Shown here piece after piece: positions 28,856 through 58,943 of a stretch of 64,000 bases of DNA. The notes under the pieces are model-generated. The model had not been told where the DNA came from and made no database searches. It saw nothing but the letters and a program-made list of their open reading frames with translations. How positions within the stretch are numbered: the first letter of the stretch is position 1; each line of letters opens with the position of its first letter. The translations under genes and the position numbers were made by a program. The DNA comes from Streptomyces sp. NBC_00536. GTDB taxonomy: Bacteria; Actinomycetota; Actinomycetes; Streptomycetales; Streptomycetaceae. The DNA lies in NCBI RefSeq assembly GCF_036346295.1, contig NZ_CP107820.1, positions 62,001-126,000 of the forward strand. The letters run 5' to 3'.

Positions 28856-29674
28856 TCACCTCGCCGTCTGCGGATACGGGGACACCGGGAGGAGGGTGGG
28901 GCGTTTCGCGGTGCGGTCGGTGCCGGAGGAGCGGCCGCGGAGGCGGCGGGTGAGCCAGGGGGTCAGGAAGGCGGTGGCCCAGCGGAGTTCGGAGGTGAGG
29001 GTGCGGGGGCCGGGGGGCGGGCCGGGCAGGGGGCGGGTCCAGGAGTCGTCGGTGCCCGGCAGGCCGAGGGCGTGGGCGACGGCGGCGGCGATCAGGGCGT
29101 GGCCGCGCGGGCTCGCGTGCAGGCGGTCGGGGCTCCACAAGCGGGGGTCGGTCACCACGGGGTGCCGGGCGGTGTCGGCGACGGCCACGCCGCGGCGGTC
29201 GGCGGCCAGCCGGATCCGGGCGTTGAGGGCAGTGACGCGGGGGCCGAGCGGGCGGGCGAGCGGGACGAGCCGGCCGATGTCGGGGAAGGTGACGGTCGCG
29301 ACCCGGGCGCCCGCCCCGGTGAGCGCCGCGAACATCGCCTCCAGGTGAGCGGCGGTCTCGTCCGGGTCGAAGCGGGGCCGCAGCAGGTCGTTGACCCCGG
29401 CGACGACGGTGGCCAGGTCGGGGCGCAGGGCGAGGGCGGGAGCGAGCTGCTCCGCCCTGACCTGGCCCGCGAGGCGCCCGCGTATCGCCAGGTTGGCGTA
29501 CAGGACGCCGGGGCCGGGGTGGTGGAGGGCGAGGTGCTCGGCGAAGCGGTCGGCGCAGCCGCGCAGTCCGGTGGTGTCGTCGCCGTCGCCGAGTCCTTCG
29601 GTCTGGCTGTCGCCGAGGGCCACGAAGCGCAGTGGGGACGGGAACCGGTCCTCGGTCATGGTCGTTTCAGCCAT
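28856..29674 (-). CDS. SGNH/GDSL-family hydrolase
   Basis: A 272-residue SGNH esterase/lipase-like enzyme. Block I is FVALGDSQTEGLGD (catalytic Ser), block III is VVAGVNDLLRP (Asn), and block V is LWSPDRLHASPRGHALIAAA (Asp-x-x-His). No signal peptide is present, so it is probably cytoplasmic. The natural ester substrate is unknown. The start overlaps the end of the PadR gene by 8 bp, so the two are co-transcribed, and PadR may control it. The C-terminal 70 residues are Arg/Pro-rich. Confidence 0.88.
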   Translation of the reverse strand: MAETTMTEDRFPSPLRFVALGDSQTEGLGDGDDTTGLRGCADRFAEHLALHHPGPGVLYANLAIRGRLAGQVRAEQLAPALALRPDLATVVAGVNDLLRPRFDPDETAAHLEAMFAALTGAGARVATVTFPDIGRLVPLARPLGPRVTALNARIRLAADRRGVAVADTARHPVVTDPRLWSPDRLHASPRGHALIAAAVAHALGLPGTDDSWTRPLPGPPPGPRTLTSELRWATAFLTPWLTRRLRGRSSGTDRTAKRPTLLPVSPYPQTAR

Positions 29675-30230
29675 GCTCGGGCTGCCGATCGCGCAGGACG
29701 GTGATGGTGCGCTCGTACCAGTCCCGGTTGGCGCGCTCGAAGTCGAGGCCGCGCAGGCAGGTCAGGTACGGGCCGATGCGGTCGCCGTGGCGCAGGAACT
29801 CCTCTTCGGTGCGCCCGGCCCGCATCTTCCACAGCATCGCCTCGAAGAGTTCGATCTTGGCGGCGGCGAAGATGGCCCGTTCGGTGAGCTGGGTGATCAG
29901 GGCGTCGGTGTCGACGTGGTCGGCGGCCTGGACCTTGACGACGAGGTCGTCGCGCATGAAGGACGGCTTGGTGGCGGCGGCCGTGAAGCGGTCCAGTTCG
30001 GCCAGGCCGGCCGGGGTGACCTGGAACAGTCGCTTGTTGGGGCGGGTGTCCTGGACGACCTCGCGGCCCGCGATCAGGCCTTCCTGTTCCAGCTTGGCGA
30101 GTTCGACGTAGAGCTGCTGCGGGAGGGCGTGCCAGAAGTTCGCCACCCCCATGTCGAACGCCTTGGCCAGTTGGTAGCCGCTCAGTTCCTCGTCGAGCAG
30201 CGCCGCCAGTACGGCGTGGCGCAGTGCCAT
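29667..30230 (-). CDS. PadR-family regulator, copy 1
   Basis: A 187-residue PadR/Vir regulator: winged helix MALRHAVLAALLDEELSGYQLAKAF..FWHALPQQLYVELAKLEQEGLI at the N-terminus and the helical Vir-type C-terminal dimerisation region. It overlaps the SGNH hydrolase gene and is divergent from a SnoaL-like gene at 30337. The intergenic space has CATAGTCA (30288-30295) and TGACTATG (30318-30325), a perfect inverted repeat that is the likely operator for both directions. The ATG at 30230 follows GGAAGGAGG. Confidence 0.9.
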   Translation of the reverse strand: MALRHAVLAALLDEELSGYQLAKAFDMGVANFWHALPQQLYVELAKLEQEGLIAGREVVQDTRPNKRLFQVTPAGLAELDRFTAAATKPSFMRDDLVVKVQAADHVDTDALITQLTERAIFAAAKIELFEAMLWKMRAGRTEEEFLRHGDRIGPYLTCLRGLDFERANRDWYERTITVLRDRQPEHG

Positions 30231-30287
30231 CGGGCTGCCGCCTCCTTCCCTGTAAGCCTCTGGTCACGGGGCATGACCTTGCACCAT

Positions 30288-30325
30288 CATAGTCAAGAAA
30301 TTGAGTAATCAGATGAGTGACTATG
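30288..30325. promoter_or_regulatory. Probable PadR operator
   Basis: CATAGTCA-N22-TGACTATG is a perfect inverted repeat in the 106-bp divergent gap between padR copy 1 and the SnoaL-like gene. The right arm ends 11 bp before the SnoaL ATG, so binding would block translation initiation or early transcription. Confidence 0.55.
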
Positions 30326-30336
30326 AAGGAGACGCT

Positions 30337-30777
30337 ATGACCACCGGGACCACCGTGGACCGCTTCCGTGCCGCCGTCGACCGCCGGGACCTCGCCGCGC
30401 TGGAGGACCTGTTCACCGAGGACGTCCGGCTCTACAGCCCCGTGAAGTTCACGCCGTTCGAGGGCCGTCCGATGGTGATGGGCCTCTTCGGGGTGCTGCT
30501 GCGGACCTTCGAGGACTTCCGTTACGTCGGCCGGCTCGACGGGTCCGGACTGACCGGGGCCGACGGGGCCGAGGCCCCGGCGGCGGTGCTGGTCTTCCGG
30601 GCCACCGTCGACGGCAAGGAGATCCACGGGATCGATCTGCTGCACCTGGACGCGCAGGAACGGATCAAGGAGTTCACCGTGATGGTCCGGCCGCAGTCGG
30701 CGGTGCAGACGCTGGGCCGGGCGGTCCTCGCCGGCCTGGTCGCGGACGGCCTCGCCCCGGCGCCGGTCGCGGACTGA
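30337..30777 (+). CDS. SnoaL-like (NTF2-fold) protein
   Basis: A 146-residue protein with the start VDRFRAAVDRRDLAALEDLFTEDVRLYSPVKFTPFEGRPMV typical of SnoaL-like/nuclear-transport-factor-2 domains, and a C-terminal DAQERIKEFTVMVRP strand. This cone-shaped fold binds small hydrophobic molecules; some members are cyclases or isomerases, many are of unknown function. The ATG at 30337 follows AAGGAG. It is divergent from padR copy 1 and so probably repressed by it. The TGACATGTCA doublet that controls the next gene follows 41 bp after its stop. Confidence 0.85.
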   Translation: MTTGTTVDRFRAAVDRRDLAALEDLFTEDVRLYSPVKFTPFEGRPMVMGLFGVLLRTFEDFRYVGRLDGSGLTGADGAEAPAAVLVFRATVDGKEIHGIDLLHLDAQERIKEFTVMVRPQSAVQTLGRAVLAGLVADGLAPAPVAD

Positions 30778-30817
30778 CGCACCCGCACCACCACACCCAC
30801 CCACCCACATTCCACTA

Positions 30818-30857
30818 TTGACATGTCATGACTAGACGTTCTACTTTTGACATGTCA
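30818..30857 (+). promoter_or_regulatory. Promoter with twin GACATGTC operators, locus 1
   Basis: TGACATGTCA occurs at 30819-30828 and 30848-30857, 29 bp apart. Between and over them lies a likely promoter: -35 TTGACA (30818-30823), an 18-bp spacer and -10 TACTTT (30842-30847), facing the membrane-protein gene at 30928. The same elements in the same spacing precede the paralogous gene at 57767-58324. The -35 lies in one operator and the -10 abuts the other, which suits repression. Confidence 0.7.
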
Positions 30858-30927
30858 GGCCAGGAAGGTTTCACGAAGGCAGGCCCGGCACCCACCGCAC
30901 ACCCCTCCAGCGAGAAGAGACCCGGCC

Positions 30928-31557
30928 GTGAAGTCGAACCCGCTCCTCAGCTTCGTCCCGTGGATCGCCTTCTCCGAGGCGGCCGGCAACGGTCTCGCAC
31001 CCCAGTGGTCGGCGGCCCTCGCCGCGCTCGTCTCCCTGGCCATCGCGAGCCCGGCGCTGGTGCGCGGCAAGGTGATGCTGCTCGACGCGATGGGTGTGGT
31101 GACCTTCGCGGGGCTCTCGGTGGCGGCATGGCTCGGCGGGCACGGCGCGGAGGGGTTCGTCACCGACTACGGCCGGACGGTCGCGACCGCCGTGCTGGCG
31201 GTGCTGATCTTCCTGACCCTTCCGTTCATGCCCTTCACCGAGCAGTACGCCCGCCAGGAGGTCCCCGCGGCGGCCTGGACGTCCCCCGTCTTCAAGAAGA
31301 CGAACCGGCTGTTCTCCGCCGCGTGGGGCGGTGTGTTCGCGCTGATGACCGTGGCCCACCTGATCGCTCTCGCCGCGCCCTCGAACGGCGACCTGAACTG
31401 GATCTGCAACTGGGGCGTGCCGATCGGCTCCGTCGTCCTGATGTTCAAGTTCATGAAGCGCTACCGCGCCGAGCACACCCCGGCCCAGGGCGCCGGGACC
31501 GCCGGGACCGCCGGACTCACCGCCAAGCAGGACCAGTACGCCCAGTACGCGAAGTAA
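30928..31557 (+). CDS. Small membrane protein, paralogue A
   Basis: A 209-residue protein with five or six predicted membrane segments (FVPWIAFSEAAGNGLAPQW, AALAALVSLAIASPALV, LLDAMGVVTFAGLSVAAWL, VATAVLAVLIFLTLPFMPF, FALMTVAHLIALAAP, GVPIGSVVLMFKFM). It is paralogous to the product of 57767-58324, sharing the FVPWI/FLPWI start and overall layout. Function unknown. GTG 30928 follows AGAAGAG. The C-terminus is a polar tail with short GTAG and QYA repeats. Its promoter carries twin GACATGTC sites, implying control by a PadR-type repressor. Confidence 0.75.
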   Translation: MKSNPLLSFVPWIAFSEAAGNGLAPQWSAALAALVSLAIASPALVRGKVMLLDAMGVVTFAGLSVAAWLGGHGAEGFVTDYGRTVATAVLAVLIFLTLPFMPFTEQYARQEVPAAAWTSPVFKKTNRLFSAAWGGVFALMTVAHLIALAAPSNGDLNWICNWGVPIGSVVLMFKFMKRYRAEHTPAQGAGTAGTAGLTAKQDQYAQYAK

Positions 31558-38696: not shown

Positions 38697-40121
<1,425 letters not shown>

Positions 40122-41120
40122 CTACTCCGTGATGGTGGTGGCTGGGGTGCCGGAAGGGAGGGCCTGGCGCGCGTCCAGGTCCAGGTCCAGGTTCTGATGG
40201 ATCTCTAGAGTCGCGGTGGACTTGTTGAGGGTGATGTAGTGCAGGCCGGGCGCCCCTTCGGCGAGCAGCCGCTCCGCCATCCGGGTGGCGTACTCGACGC
40301 CGATGCGGTGGCCGTCGCCGGGGCTGTCCTTGGCCGCTTCGAGGCGCCGGGCGAGGTCTGCGGGGAAGCGGGCGTCGCTCAGTTCGGAGAAGCGCTGGAT
40401 CTGCCGGAAGTCGGTCGCGGGCATGATCTCGGGGATGACCGGGGTCAGGCAGCCCACCGAGCACAGCCGGTCGCGCAGCCGCAGGTAGTCCTCGACGTGG
40501 AAGAACATCTGGGTGATGGCGTAGTCCGCGCCCGCCCGGCACTTGGCGGCGAAGTGCCGGATGTCCTCGTCCCAGGAGGGCGAGCGGGGGTGGCGCTCGG
40601 GGAACGCCGCCACGCCGACCGTGAAGTCCCCCAACTGCCGGATGAGCGATACCAGTTCATGGGCGTGGGTTAGTCCGTCGGGGTGCGCCGTCCAGTCCCC
40701 CTTGGGGTCGCCGGGCGGGTCGCCGCGCAGGGCCAGCACGTCACGGATGCCCGCGTCGGCGTACTGCCCGATGATGTGGCGCAGCTCGGCCACCGAGTGC
40801 CCGACGGCGGTGAGGTGGGCGACCGGGCGCAGCGTGGTCTCGGCGGCGATGCGCTTGGTGACCTCGACGGTCCGGTCCCGGGAGGAGCCGCCCGCGCCGT
40901 AGGTGACGGAGACGAAGGAGGGCGCGAAGGGCTCGATCCGGCGGATGGCGTTCCACAGGATGCGTTCCCCCGCGTCCGTCTTCGGCGGGAAGAACTCGAA
41001 GGAGAAGCTCTGCCGGCCCTGGGCCAGCAGTTCGCGGACGCCAAGCGTGGCCGGGGCGGACGTGCGGGGGCGTTCGGCGGGGGCGGTGAGGGCCGCTGTA
41101 GCGGTCAGGGTGGCCGGCAT
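40122..41120 (-). CDS. metF: Methylenetetrahydrofolate reductase
   Basis: A 332-residue flavoprotein reducing 5,10-methylenetetrahydrofolate to 5-methyltetrahydrofolate, the methyl donor of MetH. Signature blocks: [69 protein letters not shown] and [15 protein letters not shown]. It lies 14 bp after metH and 6 bp before ahcY, so it is part of one methyl-cycle transcript. The first 25 residues (Ala/Thr-rich) are outside the conserved fold. Confidence 0.96.
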
Positions 41121-41134
41121 GTCTGTCTCCTTTC

Positions 41135-44100
41135 TCAGCGTGCGTTGAAGTACTTCGCTTCGGGGTGGTGGATGACGATCGCGTCGGTGGACTGTTCGGG
41201 GTGGAGCTGGAACTCCTCGGAGAGGTGGACCCCGATGCGTTCCGGCTGGAGCAGCTCGGCGATCTTGGCCCGGTCCTCCAGGTCGGGGCAGGCCCCGTAC
41301 CCGAGGGAGAAGCGCGCGCCCCGGTACTTCAGGTCGAACATGTCCTCCACGCGGGCGGGGTCCTCGCCCGCGTAGCCGAGTTCGGCGCGGACCCGGGCGT
41401 GCCAGTACTCGGCCATGGCCTCGGCGAGCTGGACGGACAGGCCGTGCAGTTCGAGGTAGTCGCGGTAGGCGTCGGCGGCGAACAGCTTGGCGGTGGCCTC
41501 ACCGATCTTCGAGCCGACCGTGACGACCTGGAGCCCGATCACATCAGTCTCCCCCGACTCTTCGGGGCGGAAGAAGTCGGCGAGGCACAGGCGGCGGCCG
41601 CGGCGCTGGCGGGGGAAGGTGAACCGGGTCCGCTCGTTGCCCTGGTCGTCCAGGATGATCAGGTCATCGCCCTTGGACACGCACGGGAAGTAGCCGTAGA
41701 CCACGGCCGCTTCCAGAAGGTTCTCCGTGTGCAGCTTGTCGAGCAGTCCGCGCAGCCGCGGGCGGCCCTCGCTCTCGACCAGTTCCTCGTACGTCGCCCC
41801 GCCCGCCCGGGCCTGCTTGAGCCCCCACTGCCCCTTGAACAGCGCGCCCTCGTCCAGCCAGGACGCGTAGTCCTTCAGCGGAATCCCCTTGACCACCCGA
41901 GTCCCCCAGAACGGCGGGGCCGGGATCCGGTTGTCGATGGCTACGTCGGAGCGTACGGATCCCAGCTCGGGGATGTCCTCGATCTCCACCTCGGGCACCG
42001 CTTCCCGCTTGGCCACGCGGCGCTGCTTGAGGGGCGGGAGTTCCGCTCCGGCGACGCCCCGCTTGATGCCCATGAGGGCGTCCATGAGGCGCAGGCCTTC
42101 GAAGGCGTCGCGGGCGTAGCGGACTTCGCCTTCGTAGATTTCGTGGAGGTCCTGTTCGACGTAGGCGCGGGTCAGGGCGGCGCCGCCGAGGATGACGGGG
42201 TAGTCGGCGGCCAGCTTGCGCTGGTTCAGCTCCTGGAGGTTCTCCTTCATGATCACCGTGGACTTCACCAGCAGCCCCGACATCCCGATCACGTCCGCGC
42301 GGTGCTCGACCGCCGCCTCCAAAATCGCCGAGACCGGCTGCTTGATCCCGATGTTGACCACGTTGTAGCCGTTGTTCGACAAAATGATGTCGACCAGGTT
42401 CTTCCCGATGTCATGAACATCCCCGCGGACCGTGGCCAGCACGATCGTGCCCTTCCCGTCCGCGTCGGTCTTCTCCATGTGCGGCTCCAGATACGCCACC
42501 GCCGTCTTCATCACCTCCGCCGACTGGAGGACGAACGGGAGCTGCATCTGACCGGAGCCGAACAGCTCACCAACGACCTTCATGCCCTCCAGCAGGGTGT
42601 CGTTGACGATGTCCAGGGCGGGGCGGCTCTCCAGAGCCTCGTCCAGGTCCCTCTCCAGGCCGTTCTTCTCGCCGTCGATGATCCGCCGCTGCAACCGCTC
42701 GTCCAGCGGCAGGGCGAGGAGCTCCTCCGCCCGCCCCGCCTTCAACGACTTCGTGTTCACACCCTCGAACAGGGCCATCAGCTTCTGCAGCGGGTCATAC
42801 CCCTCCGCACGCCGGTCATAGATCAGGTCGAGAGCGGTGGTGACCTGCTCCTCGTCAAACCGCGCGATCGGGAGGATCTTCGACGCATGCACGATCGCCG
42901 AGTCCAGGCCCGCCTTGACGCACTCGTCCAGGAAGACGGAGTTCAGCAGGACGCGGGCGGCCGGGTTCAGGCCGAAGGAAATGTTCGACAGGCCGAGGGT
43001 GGTCTGGACGTCGGGGTGGCGGCGCTTCAGCTCACGGATCGCCTCGATCGTCGCGATACCGTCACCCCGCGACTCCTCCTGACCCGTGCAGATCGTAAAG
43101 GTGAGGGTGTCGATGAGGATGTCCGACTCCCGGATCCCCCAGTTCCCCGTCAGATCCGCGATCAGCCGCTGCGCGATCGCCACCTTGTGCTCGACCGTCC
43201 GCGCCTGACCCTGCTCATCGATCGTCAACGCGATCAACGCCGCACCATGCTCCTGCGCCAGCCGCGTCACCTGCGCGAACCGCGACTCCGGACCATCCCC
43301 GTCCTCGTAGTTCACCGAGTTGATCACCGCACGCCCGCCCAGACGCTCCAAACCCGCCTTGATCACGGGAACCTCGGTCGAGTCCAGAACGATCGGCAGC
43401 GTCGACGCCGTCGCGAACCTGCCCGCCAGCTCATCCATGTCCGCCACACCATCCCGGCCGACATAGTCCACACACAGATCCAGCATGTGCGCACCCTCAC
43501 GGATCTGGTCCCGGACCATCTCCACACAGTCGTCCCAACGCGCCTCCAGCATCGCGTCCCGGAACTTCTTCGACCCGTTCGCGTTCGTCCGCTCACCGAT
43601 CGCCATGAACGCGAGGTCCTGACGGAACGGAACCGTCTGGTAGAGGGACGAGGCACCCGGCTCGGGGGCGGGTTCGCGCCCGGTGATGGCCGCGCCCCGG
43701 ACCCGCTCGACCACCTGGCGCAGGTGCTCGGGCGTCGTACCGCAGCAGCCGCCGACCAGCGAAAGACCGTACTCGCGGACGAACGACTCCTGGGCGTCGG
43801 CGAGTTCTTCGGCCGAGAGCGGGTAGTGGGCGCCGTCCTTGGTCAGCACGGGCAGGCCGGCGTTGGGCATGCAGGAAATCGGGATACGGGCGTTGCGCGC
43901 GAGGTAGCGCAGGTGCTCGCTCATCTCCGCCGGGCCCGTCGCGCAGTTCAGCCCGATCATGTCGACGCCCAGCGGCTCCAGCGAGGTCAGGGCCGCGCCG
44001 ATCTCCGAACCCAGCAGCATCGTGCCGGTCGTCTCCACCGTCACCGAGCAGATCAGCGGCACCGACACACCCAGCGCGTCCATCGCCCGCCGCGCACCGA

Positions 44101-44671
44101 TGATCGAGGACTTCGTCTGCAGCAGATCCTGCGTCGTCTCCACCAGCAGCGCGTCCGCACCACCCGTGATCAGACCCTCGGCGTTGATCTGGTAGGCATC
44201 GCGGATGGTGGAGTACCGGATGTGGCCCAGGGTGGGGAGCTTCGTACCCGGGCCCATGGAGCCCAGCACCCAGCGCTGCTGACCGGTCGATGCCGTGAAC
44301 TCGTCCGCGACCTCGCGGGCGATCCGCGCGCCCGACTCCGACAGCTCGAAGTTCCGGTCGAGGATCTCGTATTCGGCGAGCGCGGCGTGGTTCGCGCCGA
44401 AGGTGTTCGTCTCGACGCAGTCCACGCCCACCGAGAAGTAGGCCTCGTGCACCGAGCGCACGATGTCGGGGCGCGTCACGTTCAGGACCTCGTTGCAGCC
44501 CTCCAGCTGCTGGAAGTCCTCCATGGTCGGGTCCTGCTCCTGGAGCATGGTGCCCATGGCGCCGTCCGCGACCACCACCCGGGTGGCCAGCGCCCGGCGC
44601 AGGGCGTCCGCGCGCTCCTGCGCGGTCATGCGTGTCTGCGCGGTCATGCGTCCCTGCGCGTCCGTCGTCAT
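41135..44671 (-). CDS. metH: Cobalamin-dependent methionine synthase
   Basis: A 1,178-residue MetH that methylates homocysteine using 5-methyltetrahydrofolate and B12. Domains in order: homocysteine-binding ([14 protein letters not shown], zinc ligands in GLNCATGP and VGGCCGTTP), pterin-binding ([25 protein letters not shown]), cobalamin-binding ([19 protein letters not shown] with the base-off His) and C-terminal activation domain ([14 protein letters not shown]). The ATG at 44671 overlaps the kinase stop by ATGA. Short repeats ([11 protein letters not shown]) occur in the N-terminus. No B12 riboswitch is seen, as the gene is internal to the operon. Confidence 0.97.
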
Positions 44672-45648
44672 GTCAGCCGTCCCAGTTCCGGTGCGAGCAG
44701 GTCGGCGGTGCGGTCGCCGTACACCGCGCGGACGGTGTCGACGAGGGCCGCGGGCCGGACCTCGTACGACTGCGAGCCCACCGCGGCGAGGACGAGGGCG
44801 GACATCGCGCAGCCCAGCTGCGCCGCGGTCTCCAGCGGCAGGTGCCAGCTGACGGCGGCCAGGAAACCGGAGCGGAAGGCGTCGCCGACGCCGGTGGGGT
44901 CCTCGGGCGTGATGCCAGGGACGGCGCGCACGGTGATCGTCGGGTCGCCCTGGCGGTCGATGCGGACGCCCTGGGCGCCGAGGGTGGTGACCCAGGTGCC
45001 GACCCGGTCGAGGACGTCGGAGTGGCTCCACTCGGCGCGTTCGCGCAGCAGGGCGGACTCGTACTCGTTGGTGAACAGCCAGGCCGCGCCGTCCACCAGG
45101 GTGCGCACCTGGGCGCCGGAGAGGCGGGCGAGCTGCTGGGAGGGGTCGGCGGCGAAGGGGATGCCCAGCGCGCGAGCCTGGTCGGTGTGGTGGACCATCG
45201 CCGCCGGGTCGTTCGGGGAGACGAGGATCAGATCGAGGGGGGCGCGGGCGTGCAGGGCGCGCAGGTCGATCCGGTCGGCCTCGGCCATGGCGCCCGCGTA
45301 GAACGAGGCGATCTGGTTCGAGTCCTGGTCGGTCATGCACATGAAGCGGGCGGTCTGGCGGTCGTCGGAGACGTACACCGCGCTGGTGTCGACGCCGTGG
45401 TCCTTGAGCCAGACCTCGTACTCGGCGAAGTCGGCGCCGACGGCGCCCGCGAGGAGCGGGGCGAGGCCCAGTCCGCCGAGCCCGTAGGAGATGTTGGCCG
45501 CCACTCCGCCCCGCCGGACCTCCAGCGTGTCGACGAGGAAGGACAACGAGACGTGTTCCAGCTGGTCGGGGAGCAGCTGGTCGACGAACCGGCCCGGGAA
45601 GGCCATGAGGTGATCTGTGGCGATGGATCCGGTCACCGCGATACGCAC
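44668..45648 (-). CDS. PfkB-family kinase, probable adenosine kinase
   Basis: A 326-residue ribokinase-like enzyme. Motifs: RRGGVAANISYGLGGLGL near the N-terminus and the anion-hole/catalytic-base signature EDPTGVGDAFRSGFLAA near 253-269. Its place between metK and metH, with ahcY in the same unit, fits an adenosine kinase that removes the adenosine released by AhcY; actinobacterial adenosine kinases belong to this family. The GTG at 45648 follows AGGAG. It overlaps metH by four bases and lies 81 bp after metK. Substrate is inferred from context. Confidence 0.88.
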   Translation of the reverse strand: MRIAVTGSIATDHLMAFPGRFVDQLLPDQLEHVSLSFLVDTLEVRRGGVAANISYGLGGLGLAPLLAGAVGADFAEYEVWLKDHGVDTSAVYVSDDRQTARFMCMTDQDSNQIASFYAGAMAEADRIDLRALHARAPLDLILVSPNDPAAMVHHTDQARALGIPFAADPSQQLARLSGAQVRTLVDGAAWLFTNEYESALLRERAEWSHSDVLDRVGTWVTTLGAQGVRIDRQGDPTITVRAVPGITPEDPTGVGDAFRSGFLAAVSWHLPLETAAQLGCAMSALVLAAVGSQSYEVRPAALVDTVRAVYGDRTADLLAPELGRLT

Positions 45649-45729
45649 GTGGACTCCTGTGAGCTGATCTCGATGTCGGCGGGGCGAAGGGCGAAGGGCG
45701 AAGGGGGCGATACGAGTGAGGCGGGGTGC

Positions 45730-46938
45730 TCAGAGGCCGGCGGCGGCCTTGAGGGCCTCGGCGCGGTCGGTGCGCTCCCAGGTGAAGTCGGGGAGTTCGC
45801 GGCCGAAGTGGCCGTAGGCGGCGGTCTGCGCGTAGATCGGGCGCAGCAGGTCGAGGTCGCGGATGATCGCGGCGGGGCGGAGGTCGAAGACCTGGGAGAT
45901 GGCCTCTTCGATGCGGTCGGAGGGCACGGTGTGGGTGCCGAAGGTCTCGACGAAGAGACCGACGGGCTCGGCCTTGCCGATCGCGTAGGCGACCTGGACC
46001 TCGCAGCGGGTCGCGAGACCGGCGGCGACGACGTTCTTGGCGACCCAGCGCATGGCGTAGGCGGCCGAGCGGTCGACCTTGGACGGGTCCTTGCCGGAGA
46101 AGGCGCCGCCGCCGTGACGGGCCATGCCACCGTAGGTGTCGATGATGATCTTGCGGCCGGTGAGGCCGGCATCGCCCATCGGGCCGCCGATCTCGAAGCG
46201 CCCGGTCGGGTTGACCAGCAGCCGGTAGCCCTCGGTGTCCAGCTTGATGCCGTCCTCGGCCAGCTGCCCCAGGACGTGCTCGACGACGAGTTCGCGGATG
46301 TCGGGGGTCAGCAGCGCGTCGAGGTCGATGTCGGCGGCGTGCTGGGTGGAGACGACGACGGTGTCCAGGCGGACCGCCTTGTCGCCGTCGTACTCGATGG
46401 TGACCTGGGTCTTGCCGTCGGGGCGCAGGTAGGGGATCGCGCCGTTCTTGCGGACCTCGGAGAGGCGGCGCGAGAGCTTGTGGGCCAGGTGGATCGGGAG
46501 TGGCATCAGCTCCGGGGTCTCGTCGCAGGCGTAGCCGAACATCAGGCCCTGGTCGCCCGCGCCCTGCTTGTCCAGCTCGTCCTCATCGCCCTCGACCCGG
46601 CTCTCGTACGCCGTGTCCACGCCCTGCGCGATGTCCGGGGACTGCGCGCCGATGGAGACCGAGACGCCGCAGGAGGCACCGTCGAAGCCCTTGCTGGAGG
46701 AGTCGTAGCCGATCTCCAGGATCTTCTCGCGGACGATGGCCGCGATCGGGGCGTACGCCTGGGTCGTCACTTCACCGGCTATGTGGACCAGGCCCGTGGT
46801 GATCAGCGTCTCGACGGCCACGCGGGAGGCGGGGTCCTCCCGAAGCAGGGCGTCGAGGATGGCGTCGCTGATCTGGTCGGCGATCTTGTCGGGGTGGCCC
46901 TCGGTGACGGACTCCGAGGTGAACAGGCGGCGGGACAT
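45730..46938 (-). CDS. metK: S-adenosylmethionine synthetase
   Basis: A 402-residue MetK making SAM from methionine and ATP. Clear motifs: [44 protein letters not shown], the P-loop-like [19 protein letters not shown] and [11 protein letters not shown]. Length is normal. ATG 46938 follows AGGAG. It is the first gene of the methyl-cycle unit; the 224-bp upstream gap to the aromatase gene contains the palindrome TGATGCATCA (47127-47136) but no SAM riboswitch that I can recognise. Confidence 0.97.
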
Positions 46939-47126
46939 GTCACTCCTGATGGCTGTTGGGTACGTACGGTCGGGTGCGGGAAAGGGGTCGGCGGGTGGGC
47001 GGGCGGGCCGGGGTCGGACAAAGAGAATCGGGTGAAGAGAGGTGTCCCCGATCGATCTTGTGCCATGGCGGAAGCGGGAGGCGAGCCGCGCCCGGATACC
47101 CCCGACACGTTCGTGACATCGGAATC

Positions 47127-57766: not shown

Positions 57767-58324
57767 CTAGCCCCTGGCCTGGGCCTTGGCCTGGGCGCTG
57801 GCGACGTAGCGCACGGTGAACAGCATGGGCACGACGAACCCGGCGGCCTGGACGAGCGTCGCCGTCGTGGAGTGACCCTGGCCGGCGTGGGCGAGGGCCG
57901 CGAGGGCGCCCGCCGTGATGGCGAAGGCGGCGGTCCACACGGTGGTGATGACCACGTTGATCCGGACGAAGGGCTTGAGGCTCCAGACCTCGGGCGGGGT
58001 GGTGCGCTTGGCGATGCCCAGCGTGAACGGCTTGCCCGCGAGGAGCGAGACCCCCGCGATGAGGGCCAGGGTGGCCGAGGAGAACGCCGCCGAGTAGGCG
58101 TGTACGGGGGAATGGGCATCCGCGAAGGCGACGGCCGCGAGGACCGCGAAGAAGACGGCCGAGCCGGCTTCCATGATCAGCGCGTCGAAGCCGACTCCCG
58201 TACGCCGCTGCTGGGCGATCACCGCCACCGCCACCAGCAGACCGGCGAGCGCCCCCCACTGCCACTGGGCGGACGGGACGACCGCGAAGACGATCCACGG
58301 AAGGAAGGTGCGTACGTACGACAT
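57767..58324 (-). CDS. Small membrane protein, paralogue B
   Basis: A 185-residue protein with six likely membrane segments (FLPWIVFAVVPSAQWQWGALAGLLVAVAVIA, FFAVLAAVAFADA, LALIAGVSLLAG, ITTVWTAAFAITAGALAAL, LVQAAGFVVPMLFTV). It is paralogous to the 30928-31557 product in length, start and layout; function unknown. It is divergent from padR copy 2, and the shared region holds two GACATGTC sites 29 bp apart with TTGACA and TAATTT promoter hexamers facing this gene. It is therefore very probably repressed by that PadR. Confidence 0.78.
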   Translation of the reverse strand: MSYVRTFLPWIVFAVVPSAQWQWGALAGLLVAVAVIAQQRRTGVGFDALIMEAGSAVFFAVLAAVAFADAHSPVHAYSAAFSSATLALIAGVSLLAGKPFTLGIAKRTTPPEVWSLKPFVRINVVITTVWTAAFAITAGALAALAHAGQGHSTTATLVQAAGFVVPMLFTVRYVASAQAKAQARG

Positions 58325-58368
58325 CGAAGGCCCCCGGGTTGCTGACGTTTCCTGTGACGTTCCTGTTC

Positions 58369-58408
58369 TGACATGTCGAAATTAGAACCTCCAGCCTCGA
58401 CATGTCAA
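58369..58408 (-). promoter_or_regulatory. Promoter with twin GACATGTC operators, locus 2
   Basis: GACATGTC occurs at 58370-58377 and 58399-58406, 29 bp apart. On the minus strand the order is TTGACA (-35, in the distal site), an 18-bp spacer ending in GTTC, TAATTT (-10), then the second site. This is the same arrangement as at 30818-30857. The sites lie between paralogue B and padR copy 2, so both genes should be under their control. Confidence 0.75.
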
Positions 58409-58430
58409 GAGTGGAAGGTAAGATGGCGGC

Positions 58431-58943
58431 ATGAGCCTTCGACACGCCCTCCTCGGACTCCTGTCAGAGCGCCCCGCCAGCGGCTACGACCTGCTGAAGC
58501 GCTTCGAGACATCCTTGGCCAACGTCTGGCCCGCCACACAGAGCCAGATGTACACAGAGCTGTCCAAGCTCGCCGACAACGGGCTGATCAGCGCCTCGGC
58601 CCAGGGCCCGCGCGGCCGCAAGGAGTACACCCTCACGGACGAGGGCCTGGCGGAGCTGCGCCACTGGCTGACGGAGATCAAGCCCACGCGCAACACCCGG
58701 AGCGACATCCTGCTGCGGGTCTTCTTCCTCAACGTGATCACGCCCGACCAGGCGCGGAGCTACCTCACCGAGCTGATGGAGCTGTCGGAGCAGGAACACG
58801 AGGCCTTGCGCCAACTGGCCGACTCCATCGACTGGGGCGACGACCCGCTGTCGGTGAACGGCAAGATCGCCCTGGAGTACGGCCTCCGCTTCAACGCGAT
58901 GCGCCGAGAGTGGGCCGCGTGGGCGGCCGACCAGATCCGCTAG
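58431..58943 (+). CDS. PadR-family regulator, copy 2
   Basis: A 170-residue PadR regulator with the N-terminal winged helix MSLRHALLGLLSERPASGYDLLKRFETSLANVWPATQSQMYTELSKL and wing GPRGRKEYTLTDEG, then a coiled dimerisation region (ITPDQARSYLTELMELSEQEHEALRQL). PadR repressors bind palindromes of the ATGT/ACAT type; the GACATGTC pair just upstream fits. I infer autoregulation plus repression of the divergent membrane gene, and of its paralogue at 30928, which has the same sites. ATG 58431 follows GGAAGG. Confidence 0.9.
   Translation: MSLRHALLGLLSERPASGYDLLKRFETSLANVWPATQSQMYTELSKLADNGLISASAQGPRGRKEYTLTDEGLAELRHWLTEIKPTRNTRSDILLRVFFLNVITPDQARSYLTELMELSEQEHEALRQLADSIDWGDDPLSVNGKIALEYGLRFNAMRREWAAWAADQIR

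Follow-up and report, generated by a model that had tools for sequence, protein, structure and literature searches.

The window analysed here is a 64,000-base stretch (bases 62001-126000) of contig C2, a 267,650-base contig in a Streptomyces genome of 9,153,806 bases and four contigs. Contig C2 is, by inference, probably a plasmid; a 19-kb stretch of the window partially matches 150 plasmid records, 124 of them from Streptomyces and none over more than 80% of its length. Two places in the window, referred to here as copy A and copy B, carry twin palindromes in front of a gene for a predicted membrane protein (memA and memB, respectively). The features considered are as follows.

30810 to 30837, no strand: copy A first putative operator, TTCCA-N5-GACATGTC-N5-TAGAC, an imperfect palindrome whose core overlaps the memA -35 box TTGACA (sequence, repeats, conserved columns)
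30818 to 30847, plus strand: predicted memA promoter TTGACA-N18-TACTTT, -35 at 30818-30823 and -10 at 30842-30847 (sequence and conservation in the memB promoters of relatives)
30839 to 30866, no strand: copy A second putative operator, TTCTA-N5-GACATGTC-N5-AGGAA, one base past the first, overlapping the memA -10 box and predicted transcription start
30928 to 31557, plus strand: memA, a predicted membrane protein of 209 aa, the target gene (sequence and close relatives)
57767 to 58324, minus strand: memB, a predicted membrane protein of 185 aa, divergent partner of padR_B (homologues lie beside PadR_B)
58360 to 58387, no strand: copy B memB-proximal putative operator, TTCCT-N5-GACATGTC-N5-TAGAA
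58379 to 58408, minus strand: predicted memB promoter TTGACA-N18-TAATTT, TTGACA at 58408-58403 and TAATTT at 58384-58379 (sequence and conservation)
58389 to 58416, no strand: copy B padR-proximal putative operator, CTCCA-N5-GACATGTC-N5-TGGAA, holding the predicted -35 boxes of both divergent promoters
58397 to 58424, plus strand: predicted padR_B promoter TCGACA-N16-TAAGAT, 6 bases before the ATG (promoter scan; TANNNT box in relatives)
58431 to 58943, plus strand: padR_B, a PadR regulator (PF03551 and PF10400), proposed repressor of memA, memB and itself

The twin palindromes of the initial annotation, 29 bp apart at both loci, are borne out: the core GACATGTC lies at 30820-30827 and 30849-30856 in copy A, and at 58370-58377 and 58399-58406 in copy B, with a start-to-start distance of 29 in each. 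The sites had been given as TGACATGTCA, which holds for both sites of copy A but not for copy B, where they read TGACATGTCG and CGACATGTCA. The window contains five GACATGTC cores, the fifth being a single copy at 46934, compared to a mean of 0.90 in 100 shuffles, of which 1 reached five. A genome-wide search, proposed earlier as a check, found exact GACATGTC-N18..24-GACATGTC pairs at copies A and B only, both just upstream of genes. The backwards control pattern of the doublet occurs at 0 places in the genome, and with up to 3 mismatches allowed at N21 the next genomic place beyond copies A and B has 2 mismatches. Chance, or a repeat unrelated to regulation, is scarcely credible as the source of exactly two doublets genome-wide, each just upstream of a gene, and of a doublet conserved across species, even though other genomes do contain doublets at different spacings, most of them at places without PadR_B (1 of 16 fetched loci of this kind, L012, lies beside a PadR_B homologue).

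The operator alignment (47 distinct rows comprising copy B and relatives, with copy A left out) indicates that each GACATGTC core centres a 28-bp imperfect palindrome, TTCCA-N5-GACATGTC-N5-TGGAA, extending in the best cases to ACATTCCA...TGGAATGT; the full unit is 65 bp. Since the 28-bp sites lie one base apart, the period is 29 bp (28 + 1). This spacing is not the "about three helical turns" of the initial annotation, as 29 bp amounts to 2.76 turns with 10.5 bp to the turn, and we rejected helical phasing as a general rule because spacings of 28, 30, 37, 52 and 53 bp exist too; the 29 bp fits end-to-end tiling of 28-bp sites together with the -35/-10 geometry. Among the loci looked at, padR is preceded at L218 by a tripled tile, in which three exact GACATGTC cores follow one another at intervals of 29 and 29 bp, and L297 has three degenerate cores. 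Apparent triple operators in L278, L282 and L284 were discarded as artefacts of a loose mismatch count.

The promoter TTGACA-N18-TACTTT facing the membrane gene at 30928 is present as described, and the same layout precedes the second gene, with TTGACA-N18-TAATTT on the minus strand and its sites 29 bp apart. The GTTC reported before the -10 box is also present but belongs to an operator arm (TTCTA). A generic sigma-70 scan called neither membrane-gene promoter, since TACTTT and TAATTT match TATAAT at 3 of 6 positions against a threshold of 4; the padR_B promoter was its sole call. Both membrane-gene promoters are predicted because TTGACA-N18-TAnnTT, in the direction of the membrane gene, is conserved across relatives in the operator alignment. 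Towards padR, 30 of 38 relatives have a TANNNT box 12-13 nt upstream of the padR start codon (background 0.3%), so the padR_B mRNA is probably leaderless, with its promoter under the operator on the memB -35 side, which overlaps the predicted padR_B -35 box. The padR-side -10 box reads TAAGAT in copy B and TGGGTG, and is thus gone, in copy A.

PadR_B has 170 aa and matches PF03551, the N-terminal winged-helix domain, at 52.5 bits (cut-off 27) and PF10400 at 48.1 bits (cut-off 22.4), as expected of subfamily 1, for which a size of about 180 aa and a large helical C-terminal domain are given (PMC3506622). Its best matches among solved chains are 5x11 and AphA (1yg2). PadR_B shares both domains with AphA and the PDB 5x11 PadR (subfamily 1, large C-terminal domain), while the target genes and the operator differ.

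We found that several actinomycete families have the 65-bp operator upstream of their padR_B homologues. In 79 PadR_B loci (the best 80 of 103, less 1 shortened match), we counted cores lying no more than 130 bp from the padR start and allowed each up to 1 mismatch. A pair spaced exactly 29 bp is present in 38 loci and a pair at another distance in 8; 23 loci carry one core and 10 carry none. The 33 loci with one or no core, which count against the PadR_B reading, comprise 27 mycobacterial loci, 3 from Streptacidiphilus, 1 from an unclassified actinomycete assembly and 2 from Streptomyces at 49-50% identity. A sequence model of the 65-bp unit (R1), built from 46 relatives with the window excluded, was run against 392 genomes of the genus; at E<=1e-7, and under stricter filters by which weak matches may be lost, it hits 59 places spread over 56 genomes. 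Each of the 57 hits in other genomes has a PadR_B homologue next to it (51-95% identity), and 56 of the 57 have a memB homologue there as well; the memB match at L297 spans 31 residues only, and padR is turned round at L290. The R1 matches at L295 and L298-L300 are too degenerate for the two-mismatch doublet count, yet lie beside PadR_B homologues. Across 199 genomes, 11 of the exact GACATGTC-N10..30-GACATGTC pairs have the N21 form. Two of them are those of the window, and the remaining 9 all lie between PadR_B and memB homologues. Two genomes hold a second memB/padR_B pair with its own doublet (L168, L279). Searched with R1 (E<=0.01) and with R2, a model of one operator alone, this genome gave copies A and B only, the next R2 match having an E of 1.03; these searches scored 150 of 921 and 150 of 1029 candidates, and a weak further site could be missed.

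The initial annotation had proposed a small undescribed regulon. Only two places were found in this genome, but the operator is old and shared and not a local invention; no description of operator or regulon was among the literature matches listed in an open-access search, which does not prove absence from print. Judged by its recurrence, padR_B/memB is a conserved actinomycete PadR unit. Our data thus offer a proposed operator, from sequence alone, for a widespread PadR subgroup of Streptomyces, Amycolatopsis and mycobacteria, one that matches no description found in that search.

Two sets of loci carry other arrangements. The mycobacterial PadR_B homologues L093, L096, L100, L105, L112 and L115 have no GACATGTC core, and GACATTCCA-N4-TGGAATGTC or a near form stands just before the start codon; this element reads as the operator arms in the form of a simple inverted repeat. 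Loci L014, L015 and L016 (genomes G133, G130 and G127; one other genus of the same order) hold a different GACATGTC doublet, spaced N23 or N24 and containing AACAAGTCTGCGCC. Neither PadR_B nor memB has a match in the flank fetched there, and this doublet is perhaps another regulator's site.

The usual neighbours of this PadR subgroup are a small membrane protein and a carotenoid oxygenase, which together with the proposed operator provides a handle toward its ligand. The oxygenase lies beside memB in 21 of 42 memB-bearing PadR_B loci (one a 63-residue fragment) and in 33 of 56 loci of the R1 set, and 3 of 3 tested belong to family PF03055. In 27 loci without memB, mostly mycobacterial and also from Actinosynnema and Kibdelosporangium, the oxygenase gene stops no more than 200 bp from padR and is itself the divergent gene; in the remaining memB-less PadR_B loci it lies farther off (8) or neither gene is there (3). 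No carotenoid oxygenase was found in the 64-kb window, and the flank fetched around the single PF03055 match in the genome (C1:7987049-7988359) lacks the operator as well as any PadR_B or memB homologue. Going by the neighbouring enzyme and by the habits of PadR proteins, our guess is a carotenoid-, stilbene- or other aromatic-derived ligand for PadR_B.

The predicted structure of memB is all helical (mean pLDDT 94.4), and fold searches gave no match standing out, which does not establish a new fold or a new function. For memA no Pfam family was found at E<=0.001. Aligned over 136 residues, memA and memB share 26% identity (E 5e-5), and an alignment of 66 family sequences that includes both has nine invariant columns. 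The gene 27 kb away had been termed a paralogue; memB does show the same layout, but with identity at 26% the label is weak. Over most of its length memA weakly matches the VC0807 family NF041646, at 26.4 bits against a cut-off of 65, and is hence not a member; memB has no match to NF041646 at E<=0.001. Genes distantly like memA lack the doublet in the fetched flank at 26 of 29 loci (L117-L145), and the 3 with a doublet (L141, L144, L145) are memB/PadR_B pairs.

Copy B is the 65-bp tiled operator beside PadR_B, and copy A is the operator without an adjoining PadR_B homologue. The nearest relatives of PadR_B and memA are from Streptomyces, those of memA at 91-92% identity occurring in Streptomyces sp. 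NPDC002138, NPDC098789 and G-G2. In the genus sample no close memA relative was found at E<=1e-40 in 391 other genomes, so the history of memA rests on G-G2, plasmids and protein records. On eight Streptomyces plasmids there is a memA relative at 68% identity (a ninth record, from Variovorax, is at 39%), and in all eight, by coordinates, a PadR 53-57% identical to PadR_B lies directly beside it. In all 4 plasmids read, of the S. goshikiensis type, memA and padR diverge across an N21 doublet with the cores GACAGGTC and GACCTGTC. Three PadR_A2 proteins, the presumed regulators of this memA module, form one group within the PadR_B family in the tree. PadR_A2 has WRATQ or WKATQ replacing WPATQ. 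A PadR_A2 protein search matched 71 of 394 genomes, and the best-scoring 29 loci other than its own have a core pair in 29 of 29. The spacing is 29 bp in 26 of them (a core with two mismatches in one case), 28 bp in 2 and 30 bp in 1, and 3 of the 29 repeat earlier operators. S. goshikiensis was not named among the 120 listed of 2437 hits that bear on the question whether PadR_B is also present there.

In Streptomyces sp. G-G2, PadR_B is 97% identical to that of the window, and the memA orthologue (91%) has a doublet directly in front, with one GACATGTC and one GACCTGTC core. On the other side of this doublet lies a short decayed padR start, whose first piece shares 80-87% identity with PadR_A2 and 80% with PadR_B, and whose second piece shares 73-80% with PadR_A2 and 45% with PadR_B. 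No padR_A2 remnant was found beside copy A in the window, where a SnoaL-like gene ends 42 bases before the first core, and the best PadR_A2 match in this genome is PadR_B, at 56%. Since nothing here is closer to PadR_A2 than PadR_B and G-G2 retains a decayed padR, copy A is best explained as an operator orphaned by the loss of memA's own padR, a loss that could be recent and that the initial annotation had missed. PadR_A (29667-30230) was rejected as a descendant of the lost regulator, being 32-36% identical to PadR_A2 and PadR_B alike and on a long separate branch.

Of the columns that are >=90% conserved, 35 of 35 carry the majority base in copy A and 34 of 35 in G-G2, while these two agree at 7 of 16 columns under 60% conserved and differ at 9; this is the main argument that a protein still reads copy A. 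The doublet might be a PadR_B operator at memB/padR_B only, with copy A a relic kept by recent descent or by overlap with the memA promoter. The absence of memA's own padR here and its decay in G-G2 would suit such a relic, and part of the conservation would be accounted for by TTGACA and the TAnnTT box by themselves; the cores may indeed have been kept partly through overlap with the promoter boxes. However, the columns kept include outer-arm parts beyond the -35 and -10 boxes, and the weak columns differ between the window and G-G2 at 9 of 16, which makes a relic improbable. The reader most likely to be present for copy A, acting in trans, is PadR_B as the available member of the family, and the proposal that one PadR controls both genes is supported, indirectly, by the shared 65-bp operator and its complete set of strong columns in copy A.

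A further candidate is another regulator, such as PadR_A, which starts about 0.6 kb from copy A, or a chromosomal PadR, as the genome has 8 PadR-like matches besides PadR_A and PadR_B (the nine, PadR_A included, are at 32-38% identity). PadR_A is 36% identical to PadR_B over 117 residues, and the divergent gap between its gene and the SnoaL-like gene (30337-30777) holds a different inverted repeat, making PadR_B the better candidate; with every doublet place found outside this genome by R1 going with a PadR_B homologue, binding of copy A by another regulator is very unlikely. The repeat in that gap, CCATCATAGTCA / TGACTATGAAGG, lies at 30284-30329 with 22 nt between its arms and is perhaps PadR_A's own operator.

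Taken together, these data make it quite probable that the doublets are operator-promoters of a PadR_B-type repressor, that copy A is orphaned and that PadR_B represses memA in trans. Two nearly abutting 28-bp palindromes would clamp a TTGACA-N18-TAnnTT promoter, one on the -35 box and the other on the -10 box and start. In copy B the operator on the -35 side would also cover the back-to-back padR_B promoter, such that PadR_B would repress both memB and itself. We infer that memA once stood in a divergent pair with its own padR, that this padR was lost in the present lineage, and that PadR_B, 27 kb away, now most likely represses memA in trans; its ligand would then release both membrane genes together. 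The different cores of the PadR_A2 operators mean that specificity is not fixed within the family, so cross-binding of copy A by PadR_B is not to be presumed. More tentatively, and with the odds somewhat against it, regulatory capture may have proceeded in steps: a memA module with PadR_A2 and GACAGGTC/GACCTGTC operators would have lost its repressor, and the orphan would have shifted through a half-changed state like that of G-G2 to two GACATGTC cores, as in operators of the paralogous PadR_B, which would now run memA in trans through a new type of PadR operator. The direction of the core changes is not established, and the plasmid lineage may be the changed one. A correlation between core and recognition helix, in which GACGTGTC and GACCTGTC cores go mostly with SQVYGEL, was rejected as a specificity rule, as it follows the tree and has exceptions on both sides (L038, L056 and L072 with such cores and not SQV; L225 and L233-L235 with SQV and GACATGTC). 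At memA, repressor loss, a remnant in a relative and a kept operator are all visible, which renders rewiring to a paralogous repressor testable.

PadR regulators beside their targets are already familiar (PMC5428041, PMC6624303, PMC3506622). PadR/padC is a PadR-family repressor with an adjacent target. LmrR is a winged-helix PadR repressor adjacent to its target lmrCD that also sits on its own promoter (PMC5428041), and one operator serving both ladR and mdrL is thought possible (PMC6624303). Both systems resemble the present one in having a winged-helix PadR with its target beside it; the tiled pair of 28-bp palindromes, the GACATGTC core and one target 27 kb away set it apart. The canonical PadR box is given as ATGT-N8-ACAT (PMC5428041), with a spacer of 8-10 (PMC3506622). 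This ATGT-N8-ACAT box, at up to one mismatch, was not found in either operator region, and three N10 PadR-type boxes with 1 mismatch lie in the operator regions. LmrR is reported to place two dimers on each operator (PMC5428041). It belongs to subfamily 2 and has an N10 box, whereas PadR_B is of subfamily 1. By analogy, overlapping PadR_B dimers are conceivable, and the tiled 29-bp sites may represent a new PadR operator type, possibly held by such dimers.

Elsewhere in the window, at about 38,700-46,960, a stretch matching metH, ahcY, metK, metF and a carbohydrate kinase is 81-86% identical in 20 listed of 150 plasmid records and represents a plasmid-borne methionine / S-adenosylmethionine set.
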